Assembly: GCF_028736215.1 (NCBI RefSeq)
Contig: NZ_CP117883.1
Span: 6,200,001 to 6,264,000 of the forward strand
Reading direction: 5' to 3'
DNA: 64,000 bases
Source: Mucilaginibacter sp. KACC 22773
GTDB taxonomy: Bacteria; Bacteroidota; Bacteroidia; Sphingobacteriales; Sphingobacteriaceae
Made by a program: the position numbers and the translations under genes. Positions 15,969 to 42,790 of the stretch are shown here, in pieces (position 1 is the stretch's first letter; each line of letters opens with the position of its first letter). The notes below the pieces were generated by a model. That model did no database searches. It was not told the DNA's origin and saw only the letters and a program-made list of their open reading frames with translations.

Positions 15969-18254
15969 TTACCGGCCAGGCTGATATTGAGGTTGTGTCG
16001 CCCATTTAGCATCCGGCGTATCCTGCATAAAAAATTCCAGGCTGCCGCCTTTCATGATCTCTTTATAGCTGATATAATTACTCAGGCTTAGCTTCCCGTT
16101 CCACTTAACCTGGTAAATGTATGCTGAAGTTTTACTTTTCTTGTGGCAGGTTATGGTTGTGCTCTTCCCGTTGGGCAGCTTCAATATTACTTTATCAAAA
16201 ATTGGCGAACATAATACAAATTGGCCTGATACCGGGTTTACCGGATAAAAACCCATAGATGCAAACATATACCAGGCCGACATCTGCCCCGCGTCGTCAT
16301 TACCTCCCAAACCACCCGGACCATCACTATATTCCGTTGCAAGTACTTCGCGAACCTGCTGCTGGGTCTTCCAGGGCGCTGGGGTATAATTGTACATAAA
16401 AGGGATTTGATGACCCGGTTCATTACCATGCCAGTATTCTTTTTTCAAAAATAAATTATCCAATGCCGATTCCAGTTTGGCTGGGCCGCCCATTAGTTTT
16501 GCAAGACCCGGAATATCCTGGGGTACATAAAAAGTATATTGGCGGGGCGTACCCTCGGTAATATAGCTTTCTTTTTTGTCGGGGTTGTAATCCGTTATCC
16601 AATTGCCATTGGCGTAGCGGCCCCGTACCATGCCTGTTGCCGGGTCAAATACGTTTTTATAGTAGCCTGCCCGCCTGGTCAATGATTTATAATCTGCTGT
16701 TTTACCTAATTTCCGGGCGAATTGCGATAAGGCATAATCATCATAAGCATACTCCATAGTACGGCTAACCTGCTCTTTTTTATGGAAGGCATCGGGTACG
16801 CTATCTTCCAGCGGTATGTAGTGATATTTTAAATAGCTGTCCAGTGCACGGCGGCCTTTGCCTTCTACATAATCGGCTTTATTGGCCGGTATGTCAAATG
16901 CGTTGTGCCGCAATAAACCATATGCTTCGTTTACATCATAGTCGCGGATGCCCTTAAGATAGGCCGAGCTAATTACCGACGCCGTGTGATCGCCTATCAT
17001 TTCTGATGTATAATTGTTCCAGCAGGGGAATATAGGCATCCAGCCTCCTTGCCTGCCTTTAATAATCAGAGACCGTACCAGGTCATTTACAAAGGCAGGT
17101 TTCAATATTTCATACAAAGGAATTTCGGCCCGGTAAATATCCCACATCGAAAAATCATCGTAGTAATTGCCCTTTGCCAGCTTTGCGTTTTTATAGCCGG
17201 TAGCAAACATAGGGTAGCTCCCATCTACATCGCTAAACAGGCGGGGCTGCTGCATGGTGTGATAATAGGCCGTGTAAAAAATATTTTTATCCTTCAGGTT
17301 ATCGGTAGCTACACTAATTTGACTTAAGGTTTTTTGCCAAACCTCCTTACAGGTTACAACTGCTTTGTCAAAATCAAACCCGGGCATTTCGGCCTGTAAA
17401 TTTCTACGGGCGCCATCCAGGCTTGTAAATGATGTACCTATACGGATTACCAGCTTTTCGCCCTTGTTCATTTTAAAGCCAACAAAAGCGCCTAAGCCCG
17501 GCATGTCTTTCAGGCTTGTGGCCGATAAAATCTTCTCCCCGGTAAAAGTCCCCTCGCGATCGGCCTGTTTTTCAAACCGGATTACAAAAAAGCCATTAAA
17601 ACCCGCGCTTTTGCCCCATCCCTGGTAAATGCGATGCGCCGGGTTATAACCGCATATTTCTCCGCGTTGGGTATCCACCTTTATGTAGCCTTCGTGCCTG
17701 TCGCTGTTGGGCGTAATCAGTAAATAAAGGCTATCGGCCTTTTCCATCGTAAACTGCATTATACCACAGCGTGGGGTGGCGGTTACGGCGGCACGCAAGC
17801 CATATTCAGCTAAATTAACCTGGTATAAATAGGGGGTTAACAGCTCGTCGGTGTGTTTAAATAAGGTTTGGTAATTGTTGGTTTTTAATTTCCCGGTTAT
17901 GGGCATAATGGTAAAGCTGCCGTAATCCTGCGTACATGAACCACTTAACCAATGCGAGCCGCGCAGGCCATAAAACAGGCTGTCTTTATAAAGATATGGC
18001 GGAACGCACTTATTTTCCGTTGCCTGGGTTTCGGGCGTCCACTGCGTCATGGCAAAGGGTGTGGTTACGGCAGGGATAGTGTTAGCCTGCGAGGCCCCGT
18101 AGCCCGAACCGTGCTTTATTGCCGATGCCGTTGTGGCAACAGCGGTACCGGCCAGTGACTGTACATATTTAACAACATCCTGCGCAAATGCGGATGCCGA
18201 AATAGCCAGCAGCAAAAAAGTAAAAAATAAACGTCGCGCTTTAAATAGTATCAT
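15969..18254 (-). CDS. GH92 alpha-mannosidase, secreted (locus A)
   Basis: Calcium-dependent inverting exo-alpha-mannosidase, usually acting on alpha-1,2 or 1,3 mannose. 761 residues with a signal peptide at 1-24 (ends AFAQ). The N-terminal beta-sandwich starts with the family pattern near GSGYGASQANTIPAVTTPFAMTQW in split form (GYGASQANT, PAVTTPFAM); the helical barrel carries NYYDDFSMWDIYR, GDHTASVISSAY, and the C-terminal GGLGGNDDAGQMSAWYMF, which holds the family NDD/G pattern around the catalytic acids. It lies 52 bases after the acetyltransferase gene, so it belongs to the GH89-acetyltransferase-GH92 transcription unit. Locus B has a larger relative at 34650-37928. Confidence 0.93.
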   Translation of the reverse strand: MILFKARRLFFTFLLLAISASAFAQDVVKYVQSLAGTAVATTASAIKHGSGYGASQANTIPAVTTPFAMTQWTPETQATENKCVPPYLYKDSLFYGLRGSHWLSGSCTQDYGSFTIMPITGKLKTNNYQTLFKHTDELLTPYLYQVNLAEYGLRAAVTATPRCGIMQFTMEKADSLYLLITPNSDRHEGYIKVDTQRGEICGYNPAHRIYQGWGKSAGFNGFFVIRFEKQADREGTFTGEKILSATSLKDMPGLGAFVGFKMNKGEKLVIRIGTSFTSLDGARRNLQAEMPGFDFDKAVVTCKEVWQKTLSQISVATDNLKDKNIFYTAYYHTMQQPRLFSDVDGSYPMFATGYKNAKLAKGNYYDDFSMWDIYRAEIPLYEILKPAFVNDLVRSLIIKGRQGGWMPIFPCWNNYTSEMIGDHTASVISSAYLKGIRDYDVNEAYGLLRHNAFDIPANKADYVEGKGRRALDSYLKYHYIPLEDSVPDAFHKKEQVSRTMEYAYDDYALSQFARKLGKTADYKSLTRRAGYYKNVFDPATGMVRGRYANGNWITDYNPDKKESYITEGTPRQYTFYVPQDIPGLAKLMGGPAKLESALDNLFLKKEYWHGNEPGHQIPFMYNYTPAPWKTQQQVREVLATEYSDGPGGLGGNDDAGQMSAWYMFASMGFYPVNPVSGQFVLCSPIFDKVILKLPNGKSTTITCHKKSKTSAYIYQVKWNGKLSLSNYISYKEIMKGGSLEFFMQDTPDAKWATQPQYQPGR

Positions 18255-18306: not shown

Positions 18307-19506
18307 TTATATTTTTAAAAATATTTTATTGCGATATAAAAAGTATAGTAGGGCGAGTTGCACAATTACTATACTTATGGCCTGCCATACTGTTTGCCAT
18401 AAAGGTGATGCGTACTGGATCAATCCTCCTAAAAGATAATGGGCGGTATGCTGAAAATCGATCATGCCTTCGGATGCCAGGTAAATAAGAATTGAATTTA
18501 CCCCGATAAGCACAAAAGGGAAAGCCCATTTGCGATAGCCCGCCACATCGATAATCAGATAAAATACCGACAGGAAAACCAGGCTCCAGCCACCTACAAA
18601 CAAAACAAAAGAGCTTGTCCAAAGGCGTTTGTTGATAGGGAAGGTTAAATTCCATACGGAGCCGATGGCAATTAGTATCAGTCCGGCCACAAACAAAGCC
18701 ACGCCCTTTTTCCACATGGGCCATTTTACCGACTGGTATTTTAAAAACTGGCCGGTAAAGATACCCAGCATTGCTGTACCAATTGCCGGGATGGTTGATA
18801 ACACCCCTTCGGGATCATGTACTTTATCATGTAACCGGCCGGGAAGTAGTAAACGATCTACATATGATTCCAGGCTGCCATTCATGGTTAAAACTCCTGC
18901 CCCATAACCCGGCACCGGGATAAGCATCATAGCAGCCCAGTACCCTAACAATAATACAGCAAACCAGGCAAACTGCTGCCTGATATTAAAATTCAAATAA
19001 ATGAGGCCTGCAAAAAACCAGGCCAGGCCAATGCGCCCCAACACGCTTGCAAAGCGCGTTTGCTCGTAACCGTTCCACTTGAAAAGGCCGTTAACAATCA
19101 GCCCTAAAAAAAGCAGTATCACGGTACGGCGGAGCATGGATAAATAGATGCTCCGTTTATCGGCTTTAGGCAAAAACTGCGCATCACTCACACCGGCCTT
19201 CATCATTTTATTGTGCATAGAGTACGGCATAGACACACCGGCTATGAACAAAAACAGCGGGAAGATCATATCATAAAATGTAATCCCATTCCAATCAGTG
19301 TGGTGCAACTGGCCCGACATCCACAGTAAAACCGGCCAGTTAGTTGCCTTTGCCAGAGCGTGTATCACACCTTCGCCACTCATTATCCAAAACATATCAA
19401 AGCCACGCAGCGCATCTAACGATAGTAAGCGGGGTAACTTTACAGGCGCGTTTTTACCGTTGCCGGCATTCATTAAAGGATCAGATACAATTGGTGCATT
19501 GGCCAT
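18307..19506 (-). CDS. HGSNAT-like membrane acetyltransferase (DUF5009/DUF1624 type), locus A
   Basis: Polytopic inner-membrane protein (399 residues, about 10 to 11 hydrophobic segments) related to heparan-alpha-glucosaminide N-acetyltransferase, which moves an acetyl group from cytosolic acetyl-CoA onto a glucosamine residue on the other side of the membrane. N-terminal LSLDALRGFDMFWI is the family start. HHTDWNGITFYDMIFPLFLF aligns with the human active-site region KHASWNGLTVADLVFPWF, placing the catalytic His at residue 69. It starts 18 bases after the GH89 stop and ends 52 bases before GH92, so the three form an operon. Its use on glucosamine here is inferred from the family and from the GH89 neighbour. 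Confidence 0.85.
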   Translation of the reverse strand: MANAPIVSDPLMNAGNGKNAPVKLPRLLSLDALRGFDMFWIMSGEGVIHALAKATNWPVLLWMSGQLHHTDWNGITFYDMIFPLFLFIAGVSMPYSMHNKMMKAGVSDAQFLPKADKRSIYLSMLRRTVILLFLGLIVNGLFKWNGYEQTRFASVLGRIGLAWFFAGLIYLNFNIRQQFAWFAVLLLGYWAAMMLIPVPGYGAGVLTMNGSLESYVDRLLLPGRLHDKVHDPEGVLSTIPAIGTAMLGIFTGQFLKYQSVKWPMWKKGVALFVAGLILIAIGSVWNLTFPINKRLWTSSFVLFVGGWSLVFLSVFYLIIDVAGYRKWAFPFVLIGVNSILIYLASEGMIDFQHTAHYLLGGLIQYASPLWQTVWQAISIVIVQLALLYFLYRNKIFLKI

Positions 19507-19524: not shown

Positions 19525-21744
19525 TTATTTTAAGTCTGCCCCTATTTTAGTGCGGTACTTTTTATATAGTTGCTGGGACAGCAATATGCTGCTGCCCTTT
19601 GTGGTTGTCGGGTAGGGCTTTTGCGTATTTACCCAGCTCCACTCCCAGCCGCTTATATTTTTATCAAATGCGGCGGCATCCATCGGCTTTCCGGCTTTCA
19701 ACGCGGCCTGGGCTTCTGTAAAAAACTTTTGCCACCGTACTTTATAAAAATCATTGAGCAAACCGCTCCACTGGCGGCAGGAGTATTCATGAAGCGGGCT
19801 TTTTTCATCGCCCCAAAGCGTAACCAGGTTGCGGGCATTCCGTTCATAAATTGCCTTTTCGGCCAGGGTAGTTCCGCATTTACGGGCATCGGCAAGCCAT
19901 GGGCCTAATAAAAAATCTTTACGTGTTGCCAAAAGCGCATCCATATCGCCAATCAATTGAAGATACTGGGCGCTGTAATTATCAAAGTCGGCTATATTTT
20001 TATCCTCGTAAGCCTTCACCCATTTTTGCTGCAATGGCCGGGCGTAGTTTGCCAGTATCTGTCTCGATAAATCAACCAGGTCATATCGAAAGCCATCGCT
20101 CTTGCTGCATGAGGGTACTGCCTTCATCAGTTCGTCCCAGGCGGGCAACAGGTCTTTCCGCTGATAATTTAGCTTAGTCCTTGTCCATACCGCTGCCGAA
20201 TCAAACGTTGGCCTGCCTGTTATGATCGACTCCGAGGCATCGCGGATATCTTTACCGTTATAAACGGTTTCTTTTAATACCTGCCATGCTTTGATTGTAT
20301 GTTCGTTTACACTTCCGTAGCGGTTTAAAATGTACGACCGAAGCCAGTTATCCAGGTTTATCGGCTCGCTTTGCCAGGTGTTACTGGTCATTAATTCATA
20401 CAACACGGGGTTTTGTTCAATGCCTTCCATGGTAAGGCCAATGCCTGCCAGTTTGCCCGATGCGGTATCTTTAAGTGCCAGTGCGGGGCCGGTGGCTACG
20501 CCTTCAATCCGGCCAAACATCCCGATATTGCCGCCAAAATTGTGCAACATGTTCCATATCCAGGGTTTGCCATAATAGGCTTCGGTGCGTTTCCAAACGG
20601 GTTCAATCTCGGTTGCCAAATCAAGCATAATCATGTGATCGTTGGGCACGGCTTGAAGCAAAGCTTTTATCTGCGGAGTTTTCCAGAATTTGCGGTCGCT
20701 GTAAAAAAGCCAGCCCTGCATTACCCATACGGCTTTCGGGTCGGCGCTGCTCATGGCCTGGTAAACCCTTGAACTTAGGGCCGATAAATAGGCGGGATCA
20801 TCCGTTGGCGGTTCATTTTCATTAAAGGTATCTGCCGAGTATAAATGGTCGGTGCCATATAAGCGCGTTTGGGTCTCTAAAAACTTACGCCCAATTAAGT
20901 CAAACATTGGGTCGTGGGTGTCCAATATATAGGTATCGCCAAAACCATTGTTCCAGTTAGTCTTTTTCAGTTTTGATTTGGGGAAGCGTGTCATAAACGC
21001 GGCGGGTACATGGCCGGTAAATGATTGTAAAACGGGCTTCATGCCAAGCGCTCTTTCGCGCTTTAATATTTTTTGCTGCAAATCGCGGTGGTTTGTCATC
21101 CAGCTTACCGGCAGCGGGCCGCCCCAACCATCCAGGTTGCCCATCCAAAACCATGAAAAATAAGCGGGGCCGCAAAAAAAAGATTTCAAATCGTCATCGA
21201 TAAAACCCATATCCTTATAAACCTGGTACCAGGTATACTCCTGGCCGGTTAATGCAAGCGGCATATCAATGCCATGCAAAGCCATCCAGTCAATTTCTTT
21301 CTCCCATCGTTTCCAATCCCACCAGCTCATACTATAGTTGTACGTGCAATAGTTTAAGTAGTACCGGTATTGGTAGGGTGTGTTTTTACGAATTTTAGTG
21401 GTTACCGCGGGTAATTTTGCGGGCAGGTTTAAATTGGTGCCATTCCAGGTTACCTGGCAGTGGCCATATTCGGTTAAATAATAATATAAGGCGGATGCTA
21501 TCGCGACACCGTTATTACCCCTTAATACAATTTTGTTGTTAATGCTTTCTATTTCAAACGCATCTTTGCCATTTATCGCCGGGATTTCTTCTACCTTAAA
21601 ATGTGCTGCTGCTTTGGGTATAACGCGGCCAATTAACGCATATGATGCATTCTTGTTAACCTGGGCATTTGCTACCCTTCCGGTAAAAATTAAAATAACA
21701 AGCAGGGCAAAAAAAAGCTTTGCAGGCAATTTGTTCAACAACAT
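19525..21744 (-). CDS. GH89 alpha-N-acetylglucosaminidase (NAGLU-like), locus A
   Basis: Exo-alpha-N-acetylglucosaminidase of family 89, releasing terminal alpha-GlcNAc. 739 residues; signal peptide 1-27 (VANAQ). Three-part NAGLU fold: N-terminal domain (about 30-120), TIM barrel (about 120-450) and helical C-terminal domain. Family marks are strong: YYLNYCTYNYSMSWWDW, WMALHGIDMPLALTGQE, FSWFWMGNLDGWGGPLP, SADTFNENEPP with catalytic Glu near 309, and LTMEGIEQN with catalytic Glu near 440. It follows susD after a strong hairpin (21784-21812) and is 18 bases ahead of the acetyltransferase gene. A paralogue of similar length is in locus B. Confidence 0.96.
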   Translation of the reverse strand: MLLNKLPAKLFFALLVILIFTGRVANAQVNKNASYALIGRVIPKAAAHFKVEEIPAINGKDAFEIESINNKIVLRGNNGVAIASALYYYLTEYGHCQVTWNGTNLNLPAKLPAVTTKIRKNTPYQYRYYLNYCTYNYSMSWWDWKRWEKEIDWMALHGIDMPLALTGQEYTWYQVYKDMGFIDDDLKSFFCGPAYFSWFWMGNLDGWGGPLPVSWMTNHRDLQQKILKRERALGMKPVLQSFTGHVPAAFMTRFPKSKLKKTNWNNGFGDTYILDTHDPMFDLIGRKFLETQTRLYGTDHLYSADTFNENEPPTDDPAYLSALSSRVYQAMSSADPKAVWVMQGWLFYSDRKFWKTPQIKALLQAVPNDHMIMLDLATEIEPVWKRTEAYYGKPWIWNMLHNFGGNIGMFGRIEGVATGPALALKDTASGKLAGIGLTMEGIEQNPVLYELMTSNTWQSEPINLDNWLRSYILNRYGSVNEHTIKAWQVLKETVYNGKDIRDASESIITGRPTFDSAAVWTRTKLNYQRKDLLPAWDELMKAVPSCSKSDGFRYDLVDLSRQILANYARPLQQKWVKAYEDKNIADFDNYSAQYLQLIGDMDALLATRKDFLLGPWLADARKCGTTLAEKAIYERNARNLVTLWGDEKSPLHEYSCRQWSGLLNDFYKVRWQKFFTEAQAALKAGKPMDAAAFDKNISGWEWSWVNTQKPYPTTTKGSSILLSQQLYKKYRTKIGADLK

Positions 21745-21829: not shown

Positions 21830-23422
21830 TCAATAACCTGGGTTTTGAACCAGTTTTGGATTTAACTGCATTTCGGGTCTTGGTATCGGAAAAATGCGTT
21901 TTGCGGGATTTGCATCGGTTTTGATACCCCATGATTTCTCGAACTGTCCAAAACGGATCATATCGTTCCGGCGCCACATTTCCATCGCCAGCTCACGGCC
22001 GCGCTCATCTAAAATATCCTGCAAGGTAACAGCCGCCATTGGCGAAGCCTTTGCACGTGCCCTAACCTGGTTAACCAATGATAAAGGCGAATCGCCGTTG
22101 GTTGCAGTTGCCCCTCTTAAAATGGCTTCGGCTTTCTCCAGCAACACGTCGGCATACCTAAACATAGGCACATCGTTACCTTGGTTACGATCTGTATTTA
22201 AGCTGTCCGGATAAAATTTGTTGTTCCTGTAGCCTTCTTCGTTAGCAAGTTCGTCGTTACCGATATCAAAAGTGGCAGGGTTTTTCCAAACAATATCGGG
22301 CGTAAACTCCAGTTGGTGTACAACCGTAGCGTTGGGGTTAGGACCGCTATAACTGGCGTCAAGCCCAATGTTGGTTGTCGTAATATTTATAGGCGTGCCA
22401 TCATTGTTGTACTGCTTGCCAACCAGGTATTGTTTTTTACGGATGTCATTATCATCGTTAAACAAAGCATAGTACTCTTTGTATGTATATACCGGCCCAT
22501 CGGGCGTGTACGGCATTTTATATTTATTTTTCAAATTAGGGTTAATTGTCCAGCGGGCATAATATTGGCCTTGCGCCTGCACGCCATCATAAGGCACTGC
22601 AAAAATAAAATCTTTGATTTGCGGACCGTTATTTGGTTTAAACATGCCCAAATAATCGGCATCTAAAGAATACTGGCCCAGTTTTATGACGTTATCGCAC
22701 ATGGTAACCGCATCCTGGTACCTTGCTGTGCCAATGTAATATTGGGCATTAAGGTACATTTTTGCAAGTATGGCATAAGCTAAACCTTTGGTTGGTCTGC
22801 CGTAGGTTGTTACGCCGGATGTAGCGCTCAGATCCGGAATCTGCGCGAGTAATTCGCTTTCGATAAATGCAAACACAGCTGCCCTTGGCTGAGTGCCCAG
22901 GTTGGTGGTATCCCCAAACTTTTTGCTGATAGGCACATTTCCAAAAAGGTCCATCAAATAAAAGTAAGATAATGCCCGCATAGTTTTAATTTCGGCAACG
23001 GTTTGCTTTTTAGCATCACTTGCCGGTGTAGCGTCAAATAACGACAATACCTGGTTACATAAACTTATGGTTCCGTAACCCCACTGCCAGCATGTTTCTG
23101 TCATACCGTTATCAGGCGTTACCGTATGCAGGTTCACGGTTGAATAGGTACCTCCGTCAAGCCAGTTGCCTCCACGCGCTACCAGCACATTTTCATCGGT
23201 ACTTAAATTTTGCAATAACCAGTACTGCCTGCCCGGCGCCCCGCGGAACGAGGTATAAATAGGCCCGGTGGCTGCTACATACTGCGCCGGGGTAGTTGGG
23301 AAAATAGATGGGGTAAGTGCTGATTTAGGCGTAATATCTAATTTTGTACAACCCGAAAGGTAAATAGCGCCCACAACCATGGCAATAAGGCCAGGTTTTA
23401 TATATCTTTTTAAATTATTCAT
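21830..23422 (-). CDS. susD: SusD/RagB-family glycan-binding lipoprotein (locus A)
   Basis: Outer-membrane lipoprotein that caps the SusC barrel and binds the incoming oligosaccharide. 530 residues, lipobox LSGC with the lipidated Cys at 25. The N-terminal SusD-like domain with TPR helices is followed by the RagB/SusD C-terminal domain; the ending LVNQVRARAKA, ILDERGRELAMEMWRRNDMIRFG and FPIPRPEMQLNPKLVQNPGY are standard family marks. It starts 20 bases after the SusC stop, the usual SusCD arrangement. The gene symbol is used in the family sense only. Confidence 0.96.
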   Translation of the reverse strand: MNNLKRYIKPGLIAMVVGAIYLSGCTKLDITPKSALTPSIFPTTPAQYVAATGPIYTSFRGAPGRQYWLLQNLSTDENVLVARGGNWLDGGTYSTVNLHTVTPDNGMTETCWQWGYGTISLCNQVLSLFDATPASDAKKQTVAEIKTMRALSYFYLMDLFGNVPISKKFGDTTNLGTQPRAAVFAFIESELLAQIPDLSATSGVTTYGRPTKGLAYAILAKMYLNAQYYIGTARYQDAVTMCDNVIKLGQYSLDADYLGMFKPNNGPQIKDFIFAVPYDGVQAQGQYYARWTINPNLKNKYKMPYTPDGPVYTYKEYYALFNDDNDIRKKQYLVGKQYNNDGTPINITTTNIGLDASYSGPNPNATVVHQLEFTPDIVWKNPATFDIGNDELANEEGYRNNKFYPDSLNTDRNQGNDVPMFRYADVLLEKAEAILRGATATNGDSPLSLVNQVRARAKASPMAAVTLQDILDERGRELAMEMWRRNDMIRFGQFEKSWGIKTDANPAKRIFPIPRPEMQLNPKLVQNPGY

Positions 23423-23442
23423 GTCAGTTAGGTTAATGGTTA

Positions 23443-26400
23443 TTATAAATCAACTTGTATACCTGCAAGGAAGCTCCTTGTTTTTGGATAGAAATTATTA
23501 CTATCAACGCCGATAAACTGGCCGCTTGCCTGGTTATCGATGTTCAAATTCAACTCGGGATCAACCCCTTTGTATTTGGTGATAATAAATAAGTTGGTAC
23601 CAGTAACATACAAACGGATGCCATGTACATAATTACCTGCAACATTAAATTTGTAAGCAAGTGTTGCATTACTTAACCTGATAAACGCGCCACTTTCAAG
23701 ATAACGTGTTGAATACAAGTTGGCGTTAACATCGGTACCCGGCTCACTCAATGTTAAAGTAGGCACGCCATGTGCCGAAGCCTGGGTTGGCTGGTTAAAG
23801 CTGGCCAAAGATGCGTTCATGATTTTGTTACCACCCTGACCTCTGAAAAAGAAATTAAGGCTGAAGTTTTTATACGTAAAATCGTTACCCAAACCAAATG
23901 TATAGGTTGGCTGTGCATTACCCGCATAAGTTTGATCGGCACTTGTAGGTGTTGTGGTTGACTGACCGTTGGCACCTAAAAATGTGGATACGCCGTTTGT
24001 ACGGCCAAGATATTTGAGCGTATAAAACTCGCCCAACGGATACCCGGCTTCAATGATGGATACGTTTATCCCGCTTTGGCCCGGCCCTTCAGGATCACCT
24101 CTATATATTTTCGATAAATTTGGGGCAAGGGCTGTGATCTTATTTTTGTTGAATGAAATGTTGCCGTAACTGCTCCAGGTAAAGTCATTTAATTTAATTG
24201 GTGTTCCATTCAGGGCAATCTCGACACCCTTATTGGTCATGCTGCCTACGTTTACAACCTTATAATTTACGAAGTTATTGATCAATGATACCGGAACCGA
24301 AGTGATCATATCGGTTGTTTTTTTATTGTAGACATCAACCGAGCCGCCCAGTCTTCCCTTAAATAAAGAAAAATCGATACCGCCGTTAAGTGTGGCAGTG
24401 CTTTCCCATTTCAAATCCGGATTTGGGTTTTGGGTTACACCAATAGCACCGATATAAGCATTCTGGTAATAAAAACTACCGGTTGTGCCATAAAGCGTTA
24501 AAGGCGTATAAGGCGAGAAGCCTAATGAATTACCTGTTTTTCCATATCCTACCCTCAGTTTTAAATCATCAAACAGCGATTGCGATTTCATGAAACCCTC
24601 ATCGATAACGCGCCATGCAGCCGATGCAGCAGGGAAATACCCCCAGCGGTTATTGGTGCCAAAAGCGTTTGAACCGTCCCGACGTAACGAGGCCTGTAAA
24701 AGGTATTTGCCCAGGTAACTGTAGTTTAACCGCGAATAAAATGATATCAAACGTAAAGTTTCAAACGGAACCGATCCGAAATCACTGCGAAGGCCTGTTT
24801 GATAACCCAAGGCAAGATTGTTTGATCCGGTAACGTCGGAGGGAAAATTCTGTGCTGCCGTTTGAAAACCATCCCCCTTTGTAGTTTGATCTATTGAGTA
24901 CCCAAACAAGGCTTTAAAATTGTGCTTTTCATTCCAGTTATGAGCATAAGTTAAATAGTTTTCAAATAACTTTTTTGTGTCTGTATAAGTCGACCGGATG
25001 GCTTTGCCGCCAAGGCCGGGCGCAAGTTCTGATACCGAATTGTAATAGGTATTGTTATCGGTATTTGTCTCCTGGTAAGCTAAGTTGAAATTGTAAAGCA
25101 AACCGGCAGGTAATATCAACTCACCACGCACGTTGCCCAGTAACAAATTAATTTTTTGCTTATAAGTATCATTGGAAATAAGGCCAACAGGGTTATAACC
25201 CAGTTTTAAAGTAGGGTCGTTATAAAATGTACCATCGGCATTATAAATGGTACGTGTAGGCAAATACTGAACTATTGATTTAAACAATCCGGGACTTTGG
25301 CCATTTGCACTTGACAACGGAATATCATTAACCAGCAGGTTTGAGTTGGTCACCGCATTGCTCAATGAAAAATCCAGTTTCAATTTATCGTTCAGCGCTT
25401 TTTGGGTAATATTAAGCCTGCCTGTAACACGTTTTAAACCGCTGGTTTTAACAATCCCCTGGTTATCCAGGTAATTTAAGCTTCCGTTATAGGTAGTTTT
25501 ATCGGTACCGCCGCCAAAAGAAAGGTTATGGTTTTGCGAAAAACCGGTATTACGTTCAACCGCCTTTTGCCAGTCAGTATTTCCACCGTTATCGTTTGCA
25601 GGTGTAAAACTTTGTCCGTTAGCTTTCACATAAGCCCTCAACTGATCGGCACTGGCTACGTCAAACTGGTTAGATATTTTTTCAAATGCGCCGTAACCAT
25701 TGTAAGTCATCCTCATCTGGCCCGCTTTAGCCTTTTTAGTAGTTACGATGATTACGCCATTGGTAGCCCTGGTTCCGTAGATTGCGGCAGCAGAGGCATC
25801 TTTCAATACATCAATCGAAGCAATATCCGAAGGAGCAATCAAATTAAAATCGGCTCCGGGTACGCCGTCTATTACATAAAATGGTACAGAGGCCTCACCT
25901 GCCCGTATAGACGATGGCCCGCGAAGCGTAACAGAAGCTTTGCTATTGGGGTTGCCATCGCTGGTAATATTTAAACCGGCCACTTTACCTTCCAATAAAT
26001 CGGCAGGGCTTGATACAACACCGGCATTAAATTGCTCGGCCTTAACCGTGGCAATAGCGCTGGTTAGTTCCTTTTTGGTTGTGGTACCATACCCTACTAC
26101 AACTACTGTAGATAATGAATTGGCCGAAGGCACCAAAGTAACCTTTATAACAGTTTGCGTACCAACGGTTATTCTTTGCGTATCAAAACCAATATAAGAG
26201 AATACCAGTACAGTGCTCTCGCTGGCAACCTGTACTTTAAATTTACCATCTACATCGGTTACAGCTCCTGTTGCAAGGCCTGCTATTTTAACCGAAACAC
26301 CTATTAATGGCAGCCCCTTGTCATCAACGACGGTACCGGTAATAATAGTAGGCGGCGGCAATTCCTCTTTTTTCTCCACAGGGGGTTTTGGCGCTGGCTT

Positions 26401-26757
26401 AACCAATAAGCTACCTTCAATTTCGGTGTAAGTAAATTGGTTGTCCAATAAAACCTTTTTCAAAACGGCTTCCAGTTTCTCGTTTCGCGCCGTCAGGGTC
26501 ACTTTAACATCGCTTTCAATATTATTACCGGTATACATAATCCGTACACCTGTATTTGCCGAAATGCGCTCAAGCGCATCAGAAAGCGGCATTTTTTTCA
26601 ATTTAAGGGTAACTGGCTTTTCCAGTACGCTTTGTCCGTATGAGTTATCGGCCATAGCAATGGACGATAGCGAACAGACAACTAATAAAATAATCGCATT
26701 AATTTTCATAACGAGTGTTATGGCTCGAAAGAATCTTTCGGGTATGGTTTTTTTCAT
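23443..26757 (-). CDS. susC: SusC/RagA TonB-dependent transporter with STN signalling domain (locus A)
   Basis: Outer-membrane TonB-dependent importer of oligosaccharides, 1104 residues. After the signal sequence (MADNSYGQS region, about 35-45) come a secretin/TonB short N-terminal (STN) domain (about 48-125), a carboxypeptidase-regulatory-like beta-sandwich (TGTVVDDKGLPLIGVSVKI), a plug domain (VVVVGYGTTTKKELTSAIA, VIDGVPGADF, LKDASAAAIYGTRATNGVII) and a 22-strand barrel ending in KTRSFLAGIQVDL. The STN domain is the part that contacts FecR anti-sigma factors, which fits the FecR gene just upstream. Its start lies 208 bases downstream of the FecR stop. Confidence 0.97.
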   Translation of the reverse strand: MKKTIPERFFRAITLVMKINAIILLVVCSLSSIAMADNSYGQSVLEKPVTLKLKKMPLSDALERISANTGVRIMYTGNNIESDVKVTLTARNEKLEAVLKKVLLDNQFTYTEIEGSLLVKPAPKPPVEKKEELPPPTIITGTVVDDKGLPLIGVSVKIAGLATGAVTDVDGKFKVQVASESTVLVFSYIGFDTQRITVGTQTVIKVTLVPSANSLSTVVVVGYGTTTKKELTSAIATVKAEQFNAGVVSSPADLLEGKVAGLNITSDGNPNSKASVTLRGPSSIRAGEASVPFYVIDGVPGADFNLIAPSDIASIDVLKDASAAAIYGTRATNGVIIVTTKKAKAGQMRMTYNGYGAFEKISNQFDVASADQLRAYVKANGQSFTPANDNGGNTDWQKAVERNTGFSQNHNLSFGGGTDKTTYNGSLNYLDNQGIVKTSGLKRVTGRLNITQKALNDKLKLDFSLSNAVTNSNLLVNDIPLSSANGQSPGLFKSIVQYLPTRTIYNADGTFYNDPTLKLGYNPVGLISNDTYKQKINLLLGNVRGELILPAGLLYNFNLAYQETNTDNNTYYNSVSELAPGLGGKAIRSTYTDTKKLFENYLTYAHNWNEKHNFKALFGYSIDQTTKGDGFQTAAQNFPSDVTGSNNLALGYQTGLRSDFGSVPFETLRLISFYSRLNYSYLGKYLLQASLRRDGSNAFGTNNRWGYFPAASAAWRVIDEGFMKSQSLFDDLKLRVGYGKTGNSLGFSPYTPLTLYGTTGSFYYQNAYIGAIGVTQNPNPDLKWESTATLNGGIDFSLFKGRLGGSVDVYNKKTTDMITSVPVSLINNFVNYKVVNVGSMTNKGVEIALNGTPIKLNDFTWSSYGNISFNKNKITALAPNLSKIYRGDPEGPGQSGINVSIIEAGYPLGEFYTLKYLGRTNGVSTFLGANGQSTTTPTSADQTYAGNAQPTYTFGLGNDFTYKNFSLNFFFRGQGGNKIMNASLASFNQPTQASAHGVPTLTLSEPGTDVNANLYSTRYLESGAFIRLSNATLAYKFNVAGNYVHGIRLYVTGTNLFIITKYKGVDPELNLNIDNQASGQFIGVDSNNFYPKTRSFLAGIQVDL

Positions 26758-26965: not shown

Positions 26966-27973
26966 TTAATTACAGCCCTTACCTTTTAAGGTATATGCAC
27001 TGCCCTCCTTTTTAAAGTGGGCGTTTACAAGGGCTTCTATCAGCTTTAATACTTTTTGTAATGGCATATTGTTAAAATCGGCATACAAGGTGCAGTTGAG
27101 CAGATTTTTATCGGCCTTGATCACCACGTTATATTTGCGCTGAACATCGGCCAGCACATCAGACAATGGTGTATTATGGTATTGCAACTTACCCTGCTGC
27201 CAGCTAACTACCGACAGGGCATCGTCAATTTTTTTTGCAACCAGTGTTTCATCAGTCTTGGAATATACCAACTGCATATTAGGTGTAAGCAAAACGGCAG
27301 GCTGTTTTGCTTTTGTGTTTAATATCCCCACCTTACCACTTACCACGGTTACTTTAATTGCTTTATCTTCTTTATAAGCTTTAACATTAAAGCTGGTACC
27401 TAAAACTGTGGTTGTAATTTTGCCCGAATGGATGATAAATGGCTTAGCGCTATTATGCGCTACTTTAAAAAAAGCTTCGCCTGTAAGGGTCACTTCCCTT
27501 ATATTTTGTTTGAACTTATCGGGGTAGTTCAGCCGGCTGCCCGAGTTAAGGCATATGGTGGTGCCATCAGATAAACTAATCAGTTTTATTTCGCCGTTTA
27601 GGGCTACCGTCTCCTGGTACTTAACCGGGTCTATCCAATTATCCAATTGTTTTCTGAATAAGTAGCCGGTACAAAAAACAGTGGCAACAGATGCCGCAAT
27701 GGCCATTTTTACTAATAAACGCCTTATGGGAAACGCCTGTTCAGGCGGTTTAGTTATACGTTGGTGGATGTTTTTTAATATTTGGCTGGATGCCTGATCG
27801 CTAAGAGTGAGTTTTTGTTCCAGCACGTCTTTACTGAAACCATCAAGGGCTATAAGGTATAACTCCGAGATATCTCCCTTCAGGTATTCGGCAAGCCAGC
27901 GCTTGTCGTCCTGGGTCAGGATATCAGTTTTATAAAGCCTTTCTAAACGTTGAACAATGGTTTCCACGAGCAA
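26966..27973 (-). CDS. FecR-family anti-sigma factor (locus A)
   Basis: Inner-membrane anti-sigma factor, 335 residues: cytosolic N-terminal helices that hold the ECF sigma, one membrane segment (about 88-105, LLVKMAIAASVATVFCTGYLF), a periplasmic FecR domain (LSDGTTICLNSGSRLNYP, VTLTGEAFFKVAHN, TTVLGTSFNVKAY) and a C-terminal domain that contacts the STN domain of SusC. No ATG is available; TTG at 27973 or GTG at 27967 is the likely start. Its partner sigma gene (29908-30504) is not adjacent as usual: a plus-strand serine hydrolase gene lies between them, so FecR must have its own promoter in 27974-28224. Confidence 0.92.
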   Translation of the reverse strand: MLVETIVQRLERLYKTDILTQDDKRWLAEYLKGDISELYLIALDGFSKDVLEQKLTLSDQASSQILKNIHQRITKPPEQAFPIRRLLVKMAIAASVATVFCTGYLFRKQLDNWIDPVKYQETVALNGEIKLISLSDGTTICLNSGSRLNYPDKFKQNIREVTLTGEAFFKVAHNSAKPFIIHSGKITTTVLGTSFNVKAYKEDKAIKVTVVSGKVGILNTKAKQPAVLLTPNMQLVYSKTDETLVAKKIDDALSVVSWQQGKLQYHNTPLSDVLADVQRKYNVVIKADKNLLNCTLYADFNNMPLQKVLKLIEALVNAHFKKEGSAYTLKGKGCN

Positions 27974-29907: not shown

Positions 29908-30504
29908 TTAATGGTCGATGCCGACCCAATAACAGGCCAGTAACACGCCTGCGGTTTTCCATTCGGCCTGGTGTTCATGGATATGGTTTTTGACGGCAGC
30001 AACCGCATGCCCGAGATATTCTTTAACGGTATGTTTAGATATGTTCAGTTTTTCGGCAGCCTCCTCGTATGTTTTCCCTTCTAACTTGCAAAGTGTAAAA
30101 ACTTTTTTACGCTGGGGCGATAACTGGTTAATAGCCTGGTGCAATAAATAATATTGATCGTCAATTAAATGCACGTTGTTATCCTCCTGCTCAAATTCGG
30201 CAAAAGGCATCGTATTAACAACCGTAGCTTCCCGCAGCTTTTTACGTAAATATGATATCGACTTGTTAAAACTCAGCACAAAAAGCCAGCCACTTACAGA
30301 TTGATCGGCACTAATTTCGGCGCGTTTTTCCCATAGTGCAATGAAAATATCCTGTAAAATATCGCAGGAGGTATCATCGTCCTTAGTGAGTTTGTAAATA
30401 TTACGATAAATGGCCTGGTGATACTTTTGATAAAGCAGATCAAATGCCCCTATATCATCATCGTGTAGGCGAAGCACTAAATCTTTATCTGCATCCATAT
30501 TCAT
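29908..30504 (-). CDS. ECF RNA polymerase sigma factor (locus A)
   Basis: Sigma-70 family, extracytoplasmic function type, 198 residues. Region 2 spans about 20-90 (FDLLYQKYHQAIYRNIYKL, DILQDIFIALWEKR, SVSGWLFVLSFNKSISYLRKK) and region 4 about 125-180 (INQLSPQRKKVFTLCKLEGKTYEEAAEKLNISKHTVKEYLGHA in overlapping parts). Start ATG at 30504; a second ATG two codons later is possible. It should be held by the FecR encoded at 26966-27973 and direct transcription of the locus A SusCD operon when the SusC STN domain signals. The pair is separated by the serine hydrolase gene. Confidence 0.94.
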   Translation of the reverse strand: MNMDADKDLVLRLHDDDIGAFDLLYQKYHQAIYRNIYKLTKDDDTSCDILQDIFIALWEKRAEISADQSVSGWLFVLSFNKSISYLRKKLREATVVNTMPFAEFEQEDNNVHLIDDQYYLLHQAINQLSPQRKKVFTLCKLEGKTYEEAAEKLNISKHTVKEYLGHAVAAVKNHIHEHQAEWKTAGVLLACYWVGIDH

Positions 30505-30773: not shown

Positions 30774-31655
30774 TTACAATTTAACTGTAGCCGGCAAATA
30801 TTTGGCAATCAAATCCTCGTAATAAGGCTTTAACTCCGATACTACCGGTGGTTTTGGGCTTTTTGAGTACAGGTCATACGGGTTAAATTTATCAACCCAT
30901 TTAAACATCTCCTGGTCATGCGCGTTCAGCAAATGATCGTAAGCCTTTTCGCGGTGTTGCGAGTAAAAGGAATGATAACGGATCATATACAACGCTTCTT
31001 CGGGCAAATAATCTTTGGTAATGTGGTACAGGTATTCATCGTGCCCCCACGACATGTGCACATTATCTAACCCGCATTGGTGGGTATAAACACCATATTT
31101 GGTATTATAGCGCTCATCAGTGCTATCAGGGTTGGCCGCAAAAAATTCAGGGTAAACTATCTTATCCGAAAACTTGCACCCCACGGGGAACGAGTCGCCT
31201 ACTACGTTCCATTGCGGTTCGCCAAAAAGGCAAAGCACCTTGCCCAAATCGTGAATAAAGCCGGTTAGTACAAACCAATCGGGATGACCATCGGCACGAA
31301 TAGCCTCAGATGTTTGCAGTAAGTGTTGTAACTGATCGAGCGAAATATCCGGGTCGGATTCATCAACCAGCGTATTCAAATACTCCATTGCCGACCACCA
31401 TGGCATTTCCATTTTATCAAACTGTAAAAAATTAGCCTTTTTTGCTAAAACGTTACCATAAGTTTGATAGGTATGGTTAAGCCTGTAAAATTCCCTTACC
31501 GGGTTGTCTTCGGCATCATTATAAACCCTAAACTCCTCTTTGGCTTTAGCGGTGCCGGGCTCGGGGTATCTGCTTAATACATCATCTTCCCAAACATCCA
31601 AACTTGGCAGTGGCGAAATTTCTTTTTCAGTTAACTTTTCCATATCGTAAACCAT
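30774..31655 (-). CDS. miox: Inositol oxygenase (MIOX)
   Basis: Non-haem di-iron oxygenase that cleaves myo-inositol with oxygen to give D-glucuronate. 293 residues, close to the length of animal and plant MIOX. Family motifs in order: [56 protein letters not shown] (HD iron ligands), [58 protein letters not shown] and FNPYDLYSK. The HD-type iron ligands appear complete. ATG at 31655 is used; a second ATG four codons on is possible. Upstream (31889-31902) lies a LacI-type operator nearly identical to the one before the lacI-family gene, which links MIOX with the GH28 gene in a uronate-producing regulon. Confidence 0.94.
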
Positions 31656-31888
31656 TCAAACAATTAATTATTAAACATTGGTAAAGCCCTCATCTATTGA
31701 ACTCTAAATTATACTTATCGCTACCCCCGGAAACCCTGGAGTAAAAACTCCAGCAGGCTATTCATGAACTGGCTATCCGATAAATAAGTTTTAAAATGAG
31801 CTGCGCTTAAAGGCACAGTTTAGCTTTATAATGTTTTAAAATTCACTAAAAAAAACATCGGTTTTACATAATTGGGGGTATTTATTTA

Positions 31889-31902
31889 CGTAAACGATTA
31901 CG
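31889..31902. promoter_or_regulatory. Candidate LacI-family operator (MIOX side)
   Basis: CGTAAACGATTACG, a near-palindrome with the central CG typical of LacI-family sites. It shares ATTTATTTACGTAAACG with the site at 33585-33598. It lies 16 bases beyond the GH28 stop and 234 bases upstream of the MIOX start. Confidence 0.65.
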
Positions 31903-31917
31903 TACTCACGCTGTTAT

Positions 31918-33447
31918 CTATTTTGTAAGTACCTTATTTTTAGCGCTTCGGGGCATCAAAATATTTTGCATTACCGATTTAGTAACGCCAAAAAGCGCTA
32001 TTACGGGTAATGATTTAACCTGCGGTATTTTGAGCGAGTTAAGGGTAAGCCCATCAATATCTTCAAACACGCAGGCAGCCCTAAAATCGCGCCCGGCGCA
32101 GCTAAGTGTTACATTTTTAAAGCTTACCCCTGCCGCATGGCGGGCATAAAAACCCCAGGCGGGCAATTCGCCAAACATTGAAAACTCAGGGTAATCACGC
32201 GGATTTTCGGGTATCCTGGTCAATGAATCTAAACTTACACGGGCAACAGTTTTACTGGCATCGCCATGATATACTATTTTGATATTCTGCAGGGTTACAT
32301 TTTGAACAGGATGCCCCGGTAAACCGGCAATTGATGATGGGAAGGGGTTGTGCCTGCCTTTAACTTCGGGCCCTTCCATTGGGTATCCTTTATCGGGTTT
32401 TCCTTTGGGCACATCAACAGTTACGTTGCTTATACGGATGCCATTAATCCTGCTCACTACAGTGTCTTTATTGCGATGGCCAAGACGTATAAATATAGCA
32501 TTGCCCGTGTTAATGGCATGAATGTTACTGATGTTAATATCTTCCATCACGCCGCCATCAACACACTCCAGGGCAATTGCCGAGCGGTAGGTATCATAAA
32601 TTTTAATGTCCTTTATGGTTATCTTCTTAAAGCCGCCCCATGAAGCAGTGCCAAATTTAATACCGCTGGCACTTGAGCGTGTGGTACATTTTGCTATGTA
32701 TATATTTTCGCAGCAGCTATTCCTGTCGCTCGATTTCAGGCAGATGCCATCGTCGTCGGCATTAAAAAAGCTGTTTGTAAGCTTTACATTTTTACAATCT
32801 ACCAGGTCGATACCGTCATTATTCCAGTAGGTATTGCTTACTACTTTAATGCTATCGATAACCATATCCCTGCACTTATTGTAATCTTGTATCCACACCA
32901 GTCCATTCTGAATAGTTATGCCTTTTACCTGGATGCCGGTACAGTTAAAAAAGCCAATTAACTTAGGGCGGTTTGGTTCTTCGGGTTGAATTTGTCCCCA
33001 GGGATTAGTTTTTTGCCATAATGAATCCCTTAGCTTTCCCGCCTTCAGCATTGCAAAAAGGTCTTTCAGCAATTCGTCGCCGTTGCCGTCAATTGTTCCT
33101 TTACCGGTGATACCAATGTGCTGCTGATCTTTGGCAAATATTAAGGGCGATGCATGCCCTTCGCCATAATCAATCCGTTTTGCGCTCCCCAGCAGTACGG
33201 CGTTGGCTGCCAGGTTTAGTGTAACATTTGACTTTAAGTTGATAACCCCCGTTAAAAACTTCCCTGCAGGAACATGCACTATACCGCCGCCCTGTGCGTT
33301 TGCATTGTCAATAGCCTTTTGAATGCTGATAGTGTTATTGGTAATACCATCGGCTTTAGCGCCATAATCGGTTATGTTAAAGATTTTTTGCTGCGCATAA
33401 CCGGTAAAAGGCATTGCAAGTAAAGCCAAAAAAGAAAATATTTTCAT
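31918..33447 (-). CDS. GH28 polygalacturonase-family enzyme, secreted
   Basis: Right-handed parallel beta-helix glycoside hydrolase of family 28, acting on galacturonans or rhamnogalacturonan. 509 residues; signal peptide 1-19 (GYAQQ). Start of the fold: FNITDYGAKADGITNNT. Catalytic Asp residues lie in NTYWNNDGIDL (Asp211) and NADDDGICLKSS (Asp231-233), followed by conserved SGIKFGTAS and FIRLGHRN segments. The exo or endo mode cannot be told. It is divergent from the lacI-family gene with 201 bases between them that hold an operator. With MIOX it suggests shared control of uronic acid supply. Confidence 0.92.
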   Translation of the reverse strand: MKIFSFLALLAMPFTGYAQQKIFNITDYGAKADGITNNTISIQKAIDNANAQGGGIVHVPAGKFLTGVINLKSNVTLNLAANAVLLGSAKRIDYGEGHASPLIFAKDQQHIGITGKGTIDGNGDELLKDLFAMLKAGKLRDSLWQKTNPWGQIQPEEPNRPKLIGFFNCTGIQVKGITIQNGLVWIQDYNKCRDMVIDSIKVVSNTYWNNDGIDLVDCKNVKLTNSFFNADDDGICLKSSDRNSCCENIYIAKCTTRSSASGIKFGTASWGGFKKITIKDIKIYDTYRSAIALECVDGGVMEDINISNIHAINTGNAIFIRLGHRNKDTVVSRINGIRISNVTVDVPKGKPDKGYPMEGPEVKGRHNPFPSSIAGLPGHPVQNVTLQNIKIVYHGDASKTVARVSLDSLTRIPENPRDYPEFSMFGELPAWGFYARHAAGVSFKNVTLSCAGRDFRAACVFEDIDGLTLNSLKIPQVKSLPVIALFGVTKSVMQNILMPRSAKNKVLTK

Positions 33448-33584
33448 GATAAACTATCGATAAAGAAAAATTAAGCAGGTTTATTATCCCTGTGTATGCC
33501 ACACACCAGGGGTTTATTTTTACATCAGGCATCTAAGTTGTTAAACTTTTACTTTAGTTTGCGGCAACGGCATCCATTTATTTA

Positions 33585-33598
33585 CGTAAACGTTTGCA
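33585..33598. promoter_or_regulatory. Candidate LacI-family operator (GH28/lacI divergent promoter)
   Basis: CGTAAACGTTTGCA, near-palindromic around a central CG, in the 201-base divergent region between GH28 and the lacI-family gene, 50 bases upstream of the regulator start. It shares ATTTATTTACGTAAACG with the site at 31889-31902, pointing to one regulator acting at both. Confidence 0.7.
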
Positions 33599-33648
33599 TA
33601 AACCCCTTTATATTAGTAAAATTATACCGTTATAAAAAGGTATCCGCA

Positions 33649-34653
33649 ATGGGTAACATTAATTTAAAAGAACTCGCTTTAGCGCTAAATTTATCAACCG
33701 CCACAGTATCAAGGGCGCTGCGGGACAGTCATGAAATAAGCCCCGAAACCAAAAAGAAGGTTTTGGAACTGGCTAAACAATTAAACTATGAGCCCAACCC
33801 GGCCGCCAGTAATTTAAGGAGCCACAAAACAAAAACCATTGCCGTAATTATTCCTGAAGTAACCAATAATTTTTTTTCGCAGGCCATTAATGGCATCGAA
33901 GAAATAGCACGCCAGCATGATTACCATGTTTTAATATACCAAACGCACGAAAACAGCGATTTGGAATTGGCCTTTATGCGCCGTTTGCTGAGTGGACGCG
34001 TTGACGGCATCCTGATTTCGGTAGCGAGTGAAACCAATAACGATCAAAATTTTAAGGATATTATTAACCAGCTGCCGGTTGTTTTTTTTGACAGGGTAAA
34101 TGAAGATATAGACGCCGTAAAGGTAACTACAGATGATTACGAAAGCACTTATAGCGCTACCTGCCATTTAATTGAGTGCGGGTGCAGGAAAATTGCCTAC
34201 CTGATGGCCTTAAATAACCTATCGACAGGAAAAAAACGGTTTGCCGGATATTGCGCAGCGTTAAACGACAACCATATTGCCAAAAACGATGCATTAATTG
34301 TACATGACACCAACAATGAAGATGAAAACTATCAGCTGATAAAAAAACTGCTCGCTAACGAAAAACCCGACGGCATTATTACCTCCATTGAAAATCTGGC
34401 CCTGCCATGTTATTACGCCTGTAAGGATCTTAACCTGAATATCCCGCGGGACATTAAAATAATAAGCTTTTCGAACCTCAAAACCGCGCCGCTTTTAAAC
34501 CCCTCACTCAGCACAATTACACAGCCAGCTTTTGAGATGGGCAAAGAAGCAGCCGGCATCCTTTTTAAGATATTGAATAAAAAATATTTTGAACCGAACG
34601 AAACGCTGGTGCTTAAATCAACTATAATAAAAAGGGAATCGACGGGATTTTAA
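33649..34653 (+). CDS. LacI-family transcriptional regulator
   Basis: DNA-binding repressor/activator of about 334 residues from the ATG at 33649. The N-terminal helix-turn-helix and hinge read NLKELALALNLSTATVSRALRD and NPAASNLRSHKTKTIAVIIP in part; the rest is a periplasmic-binding-protein-like sensor domain (NFFSQAINGIEEIARQHDYHV, LMRRLLSGRVDGILISVASE-like, ITQPAFEMGKEAAGILF). A longer open frame back to 33496 exists, but its extra 51 residues run through the operator and do not match the family, so it is rejected. It is likely to control GH28, MIOX and itself through the two operators described. Its stop overlaps the stop of the convergent GH92 gene by four bases. Confidence 0.93.
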   Translation: MGNINLKELALALNLSTATVSRALRDSHEISPETKKKVLELAKQLNYEPNPAASNLRSHKTKTIAVIIPEVTNNFFSQAINGIEEIARQHDYHVLIYQTHENSDLELAFMRRLLSGRVDGILISVASETNNDQNFKDIINQLPVVFFDRVNEDIDAVKVTTDDYESTYSATCHLIECGCRKIAYLMALNNLSTGKKRFAGYCAALNDNHIAKNDALIVHDTNNEDENYQLIKKLLANEKPDGIITSIENLALPCYYACKDLNLNIPRDIKIISFSNLKTAPLLNPSLSTITQPAFEMGKEAAGILFKILNKKYFEPNETLVLKSTIIKRESTGF

Positions 34654-37928: not shown

Positions 37929-38330
37929 TGCGAGGTACGAAGCAATCCCCGATGTAGCGGATTCTGAAGGGGAATTGGTATTCAAAAATAAACGACTGTC
38001 ATCCTGAGGTACGAAGGATCTATTCGCGAACTTTTCTATCGGACATGCACAGCTGATAGATCCTTCGTACCTCAGGATGACAGGTTGTAATTTCGATTGC
38101 GCAGGCCTGTCACCCTGAGCCTGTCGAAGGGTCGCGCGGAGAGGCCTTTGCCCACTATGCTTCGACAGGACAGGGAATTTGGACATTCCAAGGGTAGGGA
38201 CGAAGTATCTGCTAACTTTTCCGTGGGCTATAAGTGGCGGACAGATCCTTCGTTCCTCAGGATGACAAAAACGTGGTTTATCCAGACTTACGAAGTTTTG
38301 AAAACTCCGTAAGTCTTTCGCCGATTTGTC
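37923..38330. repeat. Cluster of intergenic palindromic repeats upstream of GH92
   Basis: Several palindrome families lie side by side. A perfect 28-bp inverted repeat has arms 37996-38023 and 38056-38083 (core CCTGAGGTACGAAGGATC). Next come CCCTGAGCCTGTCGAAGGG / CTTCGACAGG (about 38110-38175), a further copy of the ATCCTTCGTTCCTCAGGATG type (38245-38265), and GTCATTGCGAGGTACGAAGC (37923-37943). All are of the type scattered in Bacteroidota intergenic regions. They fill the gap between the acetyltransferase and GH92 genes of locus B. Confidence 0.85.
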
Positions 38331-38424
38331 GTTACGTCCTTCAAAGATTCCGGATGCCAATTGTGCAGTTGTTTTTCCAGCGTCTAACAACATTCTTAAA
38401 CAATACTTCAACTTTTTCACCCCG

Positions 38425-39552: not shown

Positions 39553-39619
39553 GTTGTATTGATTATTTATTGACTATATGCTATTTTGCTATTTGGTTCA
39601 AACGGCCCGGTGCAGTGGG

Positions 39620-39717: not shown

Positions 39718-39742
39718 AAACCAAATAACGAATACTCATTGA

Positions 39743-42709: not shown

Positions 42710-42790
42710 TGTATTTTGTTGTTGCGGAGGATGCCGGTTTCTTCCTTGTTCTGTTGATTACTCCGCCGACTTTCACGGCGTTTGAACGTT

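Follow-up and report, generated by a model that had tools for sequence, protein, structure and literature searches.

We propose that the window analyzed here, a stretch of 64,000 nucleotides from Mucilaginibacter sp. KACC 22773, contains what is likely to be an inositol glycan locus, and we favor, with moderate confidence, plant glycosyl inositol phosphoryl ceramide (GIPC) as the glycan, so that the predicted function would be utilization of the GIPC head group with the inositol end of the pathway under predicted LacI control. Its genes resemble a kit with which a soil bacterium could feed on the sugar and inositol head of the principal sphingolipid of plants. The gene families, the operators, and the conservation and co-occurrence of both are read directly from the sequences (Table 1); from them we infer DNA binding, the inducer, the substrate, the specificity of the GH28 protein and the role of each enzyme. 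If correct, this proposal would explain how membrane lipids of plants come to nourish Bacteroidota of roots and soil, provide enzymes for dissecting GIPC glycans, add a new activity to GH28, and connect the breakdown of inositol in bacteria with its synthesis by way of a single family of operators.

Table 1. Features of the proposed inositol glycan locus, with positions in the window
Feature	Position	Strand	Remarks
Operator A: 5' extension ATTTA and 22-bp palindrome, MIOX promoter side	31880..31906	.	aligns with the element before SSS/MIOX in relatives
Operator B: ATTTA extension and 22-bp palindrome, between divergent GH28 and lacI	33576..33602	.	
LacI-family repressor, recognition helix TATVSRAL (R type)	33649..34653	+	PF00356 and sugar-binding domain
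GH28, signal-peptide-like start; proposed alpha-glucuronosyl-inositol hydrolase (substrate inferred)	31918..33447	-	PF00295, E 2e-22
Myo-inositol oxygenase (MIOX), signal peptide absent by eye	30774..31655	-	PF05153, E 7e-107
ECF sigma factor, probable SusC/SusD operon regulator	29908..30504	-	role from position
FecR-type anti-sigma factor	26966..27973	-	
SusC-type TonB-dependent receptor with STN domain	23443..26757	-	67-90% to SusC in 13 related loci
SusD	21830..23422	-	71-92% to SusD in 13 related loci
NAGLU (GH89) alpha-N-acetylglucosaminidase, signal-peptide-like start	19525..21744	-	E 7e-171 to PDB 4xwh
HGSNAT/NagX-like transmembrane N-acetyltransferase	18307..19506	-	H69 aligns with HGSNAT catalytic histidine
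GH92 (alpha-mannosidase family)	15969..18254	-	60-67% to GH92 in six related MIOX loci

The regulatory part of the proposal starts from a 17-mer, ATTTATTTACGTAAACG, which occurs at 31880-31896 and again at 33576-33592 of the window and at both places runs on into a 22-bp palindrome (A, TTTACGTAAACGATTACGTACT, 31885-31906; B, TTTACGTAAACGTTTGCATAAA, 33581-33602). This agrees with a sequence-only reading of the same DNA, which had claimed 17 shared bases and had placed one site in the gap between GH28 and lacI and the other before MIOX. Both palindromes are near-perfect, of LacI type, and each is two mismatches from TTTACGTAAWCGWTTACGTAAA. The center is CG, and the operator precedes lacI itself as well as the target genes: site A is ~230 bp upstream of the start codon of MIOX and 11 bp behind the GH28 stop, and site B 46 bp before the lacI ATG (33649). 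Under a first-order Markov model trained on the window, a 22-bp palindrome at ≤2 mismatches is expected 1e-4 times per 64 kb and 0.012 times per 7.54-Mb genome. Taken alone, the 12-mer shows no enrichment in the window at 2 mismatches (14 occurrences versus 9.2 expected, with 10 of 100 shuffles reaching 14); within the window it is the full palindrome, and not the 12-mer alone, that is significant. A scan of 28-36 kb of the window against Rfam returned zero matches, and no assignable promoter -7 element was seen around A. By eye, a short perfect hairpin (CTGGAGT-TTTT-ACTCCAG) is seen in the MIOX leader at 31720-31770.

Searching the whole genome at ≤3 mismatches recovered four places, all at 2 mismatches, compared to one for the reversed control: A, B, a site at C1:3953615 and a T-type site at ino1. 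The C1:3953615 site is identical to A over its 22 bp and is followed after ~150 bp by the called start of a SusC gene and then by SusD; three MIOX/lacI clusters contain orthologues of this pair (68-74%). Across 61 Mucilaginibacter genomes, the consensus with G or T at position 6 and ≤1 mismatch yielded 28 near-exact places in 23 genomes, and the reversed control pattern none. Inositol genes carry 23 of these (16 MIOX/lacI clusters and seven ino1, coding for inositol-phosphate synthase); the remaining five comprise two at uronate genes, both in G047, and three elsewhere, at a SusC-like gene, a ROK-family gene and a gene for an uncharacterized exported protein. The operator family follows inositol genes, and its recurrence at MIOX and lacI promoters across the genus bears out the suggestion that LacI-type operators tie MIOX, GH28 and lacI together. 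In promoter alignments the palindrome is kept and little besides. Sites at 3 mismatches are partly noise: one search at this level gave 8 forward matches versus 18 for the reversed control, another over 20 genomes gave 48 versus 12 with three genomes lacking any, and some matches at 2-3 mismatches adjoin MarR-like or unrelated genes. We consider A and B almost certain to be operators. That the twin sites might be a product of chance, or a shared repeat with no regulatory role, would fit the unremarkable 12-mer count and the near-control level of 3-mismatch matches, but the small genome-wide expectation at 2 mismatches, the retention of sites at orthologous promoters and the empty control at 1 mismatch in 61 genomes reduce its probability to a negligible one. 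Two further observations concern similar elements: a palindrome, TTTACGTAATTGATTACGTAAT, and its variants, resembling the LacI operator yet distinct from it, stand before or beside MarR-like genes (L130, L131, L136), and in G052 a perfect T-type operator precedes an uncharacterized exported protein (L118:1501-3021) that has a weak, sub-cut-off match to an MGH1-like glycoside hydrolase domain.

The LacI protein matches PF00356 and PF00532/PF13377 above cut-off, corresponding to an HTH and a periplasmic-binding-protein-like effector domain, and is very probably the binder of A/B-type operators. LacI proteins neighboring such sites come in two sorts, with ATVS-R-AL or AT(V/I)S-K-AL, which differ at a helix position that we take to be equivalent to Arg22 of LacI. 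Operator position 6 is G in 22 of 22 half-sites accompanied by an R-type LacI and T in 19 of 24 accompanied by a K-type one. This count used 23 of 36 lacI rows, setting aside a duplicate (L076), a same-species copy (L079), and those in which the site had >2 mismatches or was missing (R-type L080, L081, L084 and L090; K-type L077, L094, L095, L098, L099, L100 and L102). The covariation of helix residue and operator base is suggestive support for the predicted LacI/operator pairing, albeit not independent proof, since the R and K sorts are LacI clades. As in LacI-family local repressors of sugar operons, the operator is a CG-centered palindrome that adjoins its own lacI and precedes metabolic genes; the difference here is that MIOX is targeted and that a paralogous LacI may act at ino1. 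Our search of the open-access literature, preprints excluded, found no report of LacI control of MIOX.

MIOX itself is full length and matches inositol oxygenase 2huo over residues 21-291 (E 1.5e-73), with the nearest named MIOX locus among the matches listed belonging to Mucilaginibacter sp. SMC90 (98% identical). It is present in 39 of the 61 genus genomes. In the best 80 of 498 named MIOX loci, many of which extend <10 kb per side, a symporter occurs in 54, NAGLU in 8, GH28 in 8 and HGSNAT in 6. MIOX as a constant part of the glycan locus is ruled out, as most of these 80 show the symporter alone; the general role of MIOX is in inositol use, to which the glycan locus adds a further application. 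The stretch of the window examined showed no symporter, and in this genome a symporter with a related operator lies elsewhere. With the T-type consensus at ≤3 mismatches, the same genome has ino1 at 0 mismatches and a K-type lacI/symporter pair at 2, and the reversed control gives 3, for which reason only the exact ino1 site stands alone; the lacI/symporter pair is supported by recurrence in relatives. The ino1 site, TTTACTTAAACGTTTAAGTAAA, is a perfect palindrome (L002:8577-8598, equal to C1:5264576-5264597) ~105 bp before the gene for myo-inositol-1-phosphate synthase. An operator is found ~80-150 bp before ino1 in seven genomes, with a second copy upstream in three of six aligned (G042, G052 and G022; spacing 65 bp in G052). 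A reciprocal inositol switch, in which a paralogous K-type LacI would act at ino1, is plausible. The use of myo-inositol is shared with the iol-type bacterial catabolic pathway; the latter begins with inositol dehydrogenase, the present one with MIOX. At L091:6189-9270, a K-type LacI and a sodium:solute symporter are divergently oriented, the related operator there being TTTGCTTAAACGTTTAACTAAA; in G056 (L103) this operator sits between SSS-MIOX and lacI.

We then considered the conserved gene neighborhoods. In four relatives (L070, L072, L073 and L074), lacI is divergent from a row of the order operator-SusC-SusD-NAGLU-HGSNAT-GH28-operator-SSS-MIOX, and a further one (L071) has the same order without the symporter. 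In a second genus of the same family, two genomes have a single operon, MIOX-SusC-SusD-phosphatase-HGSNAT-NAGLU-GH28-GH92, behind a 0-mismatch operator of mixed half-sites and divergent from a K-type lacI. Xanthocytophaga, of the order Cytophagales (Mucilaginibacter belongs to Sphingobacteriales), has the row lacI-MIOX-HGSNAT-NAGLU-phosphatase-GH28, in which GH28 is a 186-aa frame only and lacI is 32% identical; no operator was found at this locus. Six genomes (G022, G027, G031, G013, G056 and G023) carry SusC-SusD-GH28-NAGLU-HGSNAT apart from any MIOX, preceded by FecR in five of the six stretches fetched, and G023, which has HGSNAT-NAGLU, has no MIOX in its genome. Downstream of such MIOX-free clusters lie GH2 and GH43 (G027) or GH43 (G023), which would suit the galactose and arabinose of larger head groups.

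A close HGSNAT clade (≥55% identity to the L072 protein) accounts for 26 of the 81 HGSNAT-family matches in the 61 genomes. NAGLU is found ≤5 kb from all 26, and MIOX ≤20 kb from 16, nine others carrying MIOX elsewhere; none of the other 55 family matches is near NAGLU or MIOX. MIOX is present in 25 of 26 genomes with the clade versus 14 of 35 for the rest (Fisher p 3e-6, uncorrected for relatedness or genome size). The HGSNAT (81) and MIOX (42) lists underlying these counts are complete, and that for NAGLU holds 54 of 64 rows, the other ten all being ≤39% identical. Among 148 phylum genomes (≥95% complete, own genome included), NAGLU at ≥65% identity occurs in five, in every case with the acetyltransferase adjacent; one of the five, G092 of another family, has the NAGLU-HGSNAT pair without MIOX or GH28 within ~8 kb. 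The phosphatase, a calcineurin-like phosphoesterase by Pfam, is more loosely associated, occupying 36 places in 29 of 61 genomes with only five adjoining these genes; it lies ~3 kb from HGSNAT in G002, G035, G046 and G048, and is absent from our genome at E 1e-60. The fifth of these places is in G009, where the metallophosphatase gene (L083:14104-15307) is beside lacI under a perfect operator.

The window itself displays the features of a SusC/SusD utilization locus, with adjacent susC and susD (21830-26757) and the co-encoded hydrolases NAGLU, GH92 and GH28, for which families were assigned by Pfam and export by signal-peptide-like N-termini recognized by eye. NAGLU has all three of its domains (PF05089, PF12971 and PF12972). 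The HGSNAT-like protein matches human HGSNAT (E 4e-19), H69 corresponding to the catalytic histidine after a 28-residue isoform offset; Pfam has no family for it, its matches coming from PDB and NCBIfam, where it falls under the NagX equivalog cut-off (362 of 480 bits).

The GH28 protein scores 80 bits against PF00295 (cut-off 22.9). The G-H-G motif histidine has a role in polygalacturonases; here HG(G) is replaced by ASG/ASA in the alignment with 3jur, the T. maritima exopolygalacturonase, and in orthologues, while the aspartate motifs NNDGID and DDG are retained, a change compatible with altered specificity. All NCBIfam pectinase cut-offs are missed, the best score being 243 of 500 bits for the BT4146 rhamnogalacturonidase model. 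An AlphaFold model (pLDDT 86, 20 sequences) has its best matches among galacturonidases and polygalacturonases of GH28. Uronate epimerases reach a comparable Z, and the VIA-align list likewise includes epimerases and tailspikes at similar Z; the fold match therefore does not tell the substrate. GH28 is the one candidate uronidase common to the clusters with named genes, G028 additionally having GH39. Read as a plain pectinase in the sequence-only account, the protein fits that description poorly given the absent histidine, the missed cut-offs and its co-travel with NAGLU, HGSNAT and MIOX. We see an even chance that it is instead a GlcA-inositol hydrolase, although we know of no GH28 that cleaves alpha-GlcA.

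To our knowledge, no glycoconjugate other than GIPC joins all the parts to which this gene set corresponds, namely Man or GlcN(Ac)-alpha-1,4-GlcA-alpha-1,2-inositol-phosphate. In the GIPC head, the alpha-GlcNAc-1,4-GlcA linkage is, after acetylation, the bond of NAGLU. The best-described plant head is GlcNAc(alpha1-4)GlcA(alpha1-2)inositol-1-O-phosphorylceramide, with GlcN, Man, Gal and Ara variants and Man-GlcA-IPC leading in Arabidopsis leaves (PMC8099651, PMC9113257); GIPCs are estimated to make up as much as 40% of the sphingolipids of plants (PMC8099651). Plant cell walls extracted with water are described as yielding inositol phosphate glycans in soluble form together with an inositol glycan (PMC11496612), and the substrate therefore exists outside the lipid as well. 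HGSNAT acetylates the terminal alpha-glucosamine of heparan sulfate, with His269 proposed as the residue through which it acts (PMC11357348).

In light of these correspondences, we posit that SusC/SusD would import the glycan and GH92 take off mannose; acting across the inner membrane, the HGSNAT-like protein would acetylate a terminal alpha-glucosamine and thereby enable NAGLU to release GlcNAc, as proposed by analogy to the lysosome; and GH28 would split alpha-GlcA off inositol. In relatives the phosphatase would strip the phosphate and the sodium symporter import inositol. MIOX would then oxidize inositol to glucuronate, joining the freed GlcA in the uronate pathway. LacI would bind A, B and the distant operator before the second SusC/SusD pair, repressing MIOX, GH28/lacI and the distant SusC/SusD as long as no inducer is present; inositol or a glycosyl-inositol is the probable inducer. 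No operator of the A/B type was found in front of the NAGLU/HGSNAT/SusCD genes of the window, so a single LacI regulon need not cover the whole set; control of the SusC-SusD-NAGLU-HGSNAT-GH92 genes probably falls to the sigma/FecR pair. The proposal in its fullest form, a dedicated bacterial pathway for GIPC heads (GH28 as alpha-glucuronosyl-inositol hydrolase, a lysosome-like HGSNAT-NAGLU pair) together with paralogous LacI switches setting MIOX against ino1, we regard as evenly poised.

Three other readings of the locus deserve to be weighed against the utilization of GIPC heads. The target might be the glycan of a GPI anchor (Man-Man-Man-GlcN-alpha-1,6-inositol-P), such as the anchor found on arabinogalactan proteins of plants, with HGSNAT and NAGLU removing GlcN, GH92 the mannoses and MIOX consuming the inositol. 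Such a target would account for GH92, HGSNAT with NAGLU, the phosphatase and MIOX; its GlcN is unacetylated, which fits HGSNAT, and more GH92 and GH35 genes adjoin lacI in the window. The GPI glycan has no uronic acid, yet GH28 is in the operon of the complete clusters seen, leaving this reading rather improbable. If the substrate were instead a glycan resembling heparan or heparosan and ending in alpha-GlcN(Ac)-GlcA, with MIOX as an unrelated passenger, HGSNAT and NAGLU would be accounted for as the lysosomal heparan sulfate pair. The GlcA of heparan is, however, beta-linked, and GH28 would not be expected to cut it; the genes scanned, a part of those in the clusters, include no lyase or sulfatase, and MIOX stands in the same row in three genera, making a substrate of this kind very unlikely.

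The remaining reading extends the earlier suggestion of a uronate regulon: free plant inositol and pectin would be used jointly, GH28 freeing galacturonate, MIOX making glucuronate and LacI sensing the shared uronate. The operators common to MIOX and GH28, the galacturonidases and polygalacturonases as nearest solved folds of GH28, the rhamnogalacturonidase as its best NCBIfam model and the similar sites at uronate genes of G047 all speak for it. However, the uronate operon of this genome, a UxuA-UxaC-PfkB-type kinase-KDPG aldolase-MFS cluster (C1:2385-2391 kb), has no site at ≤5 mismatches in 19.9 kb around UxaC, the uronate isomerase. The preponderance of inositol over uronate genes among the genus sites, the partnership of GH28 with NAGLU/HGSNAT and its missing histidine also count against the idea. 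The uronate regulon as such is not supported, and joint inositol and pectin use is improbable; what survives of the joint control envisaged is that inositol use and GH28 share operators, pectin as the substrate being its weak part. In G047 (L129:2900-11500), TTTACTTyAACGwTTAAGTAAA sites occur at the genes for KduI and a PfkB-type kinase, with a different LacI close by; their resemblance to the inositol operator makes cross-talk possible.

The proposed GIPC locus shares with the SusC/SusD loci of Bacteroidota the SusC-SusD pair, hydrolases with signal-peptide-like starts and LacI or ECF-sigma/FecR regulators. It differs in that MIOX and HGSNAT, and in relatives the phosphatase, are built in, and in that the predicted target is not a polysaccharide but the head group of a phospho-glycolipid. 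To lysosomal heparan sulfate degradation, in which HGSNAT is followed by NAGLU, it is related by homologous proteins with the catalytic histidine of HGSNAT aligned; the system here is bacterial, has GH28 and MIOX in one operon in relatives, and would act on alpha-linked glucuronate as opposed to the beta-linked glucuronate of heparan. We found no report of bacterial use of GIPC head groups in the open-access literature, preprints excluded. A GIPC phospholipase C of Botrytis also targets plant GIPC and yields inositol phosphate glycans, as far as described in part of PMC11496612; it is a fungal lipase, whereas the genes here would consume the released glycans. On the other side of lacI in the window (34650-51739) is a second group of genes comprising a second GH92, an acyltransferase-like protein, GH35, a second NAGLU, SusD/SusC and FecR, which is only distantly like the first (NAGLU ~57% and SusC ~30% to related loci).
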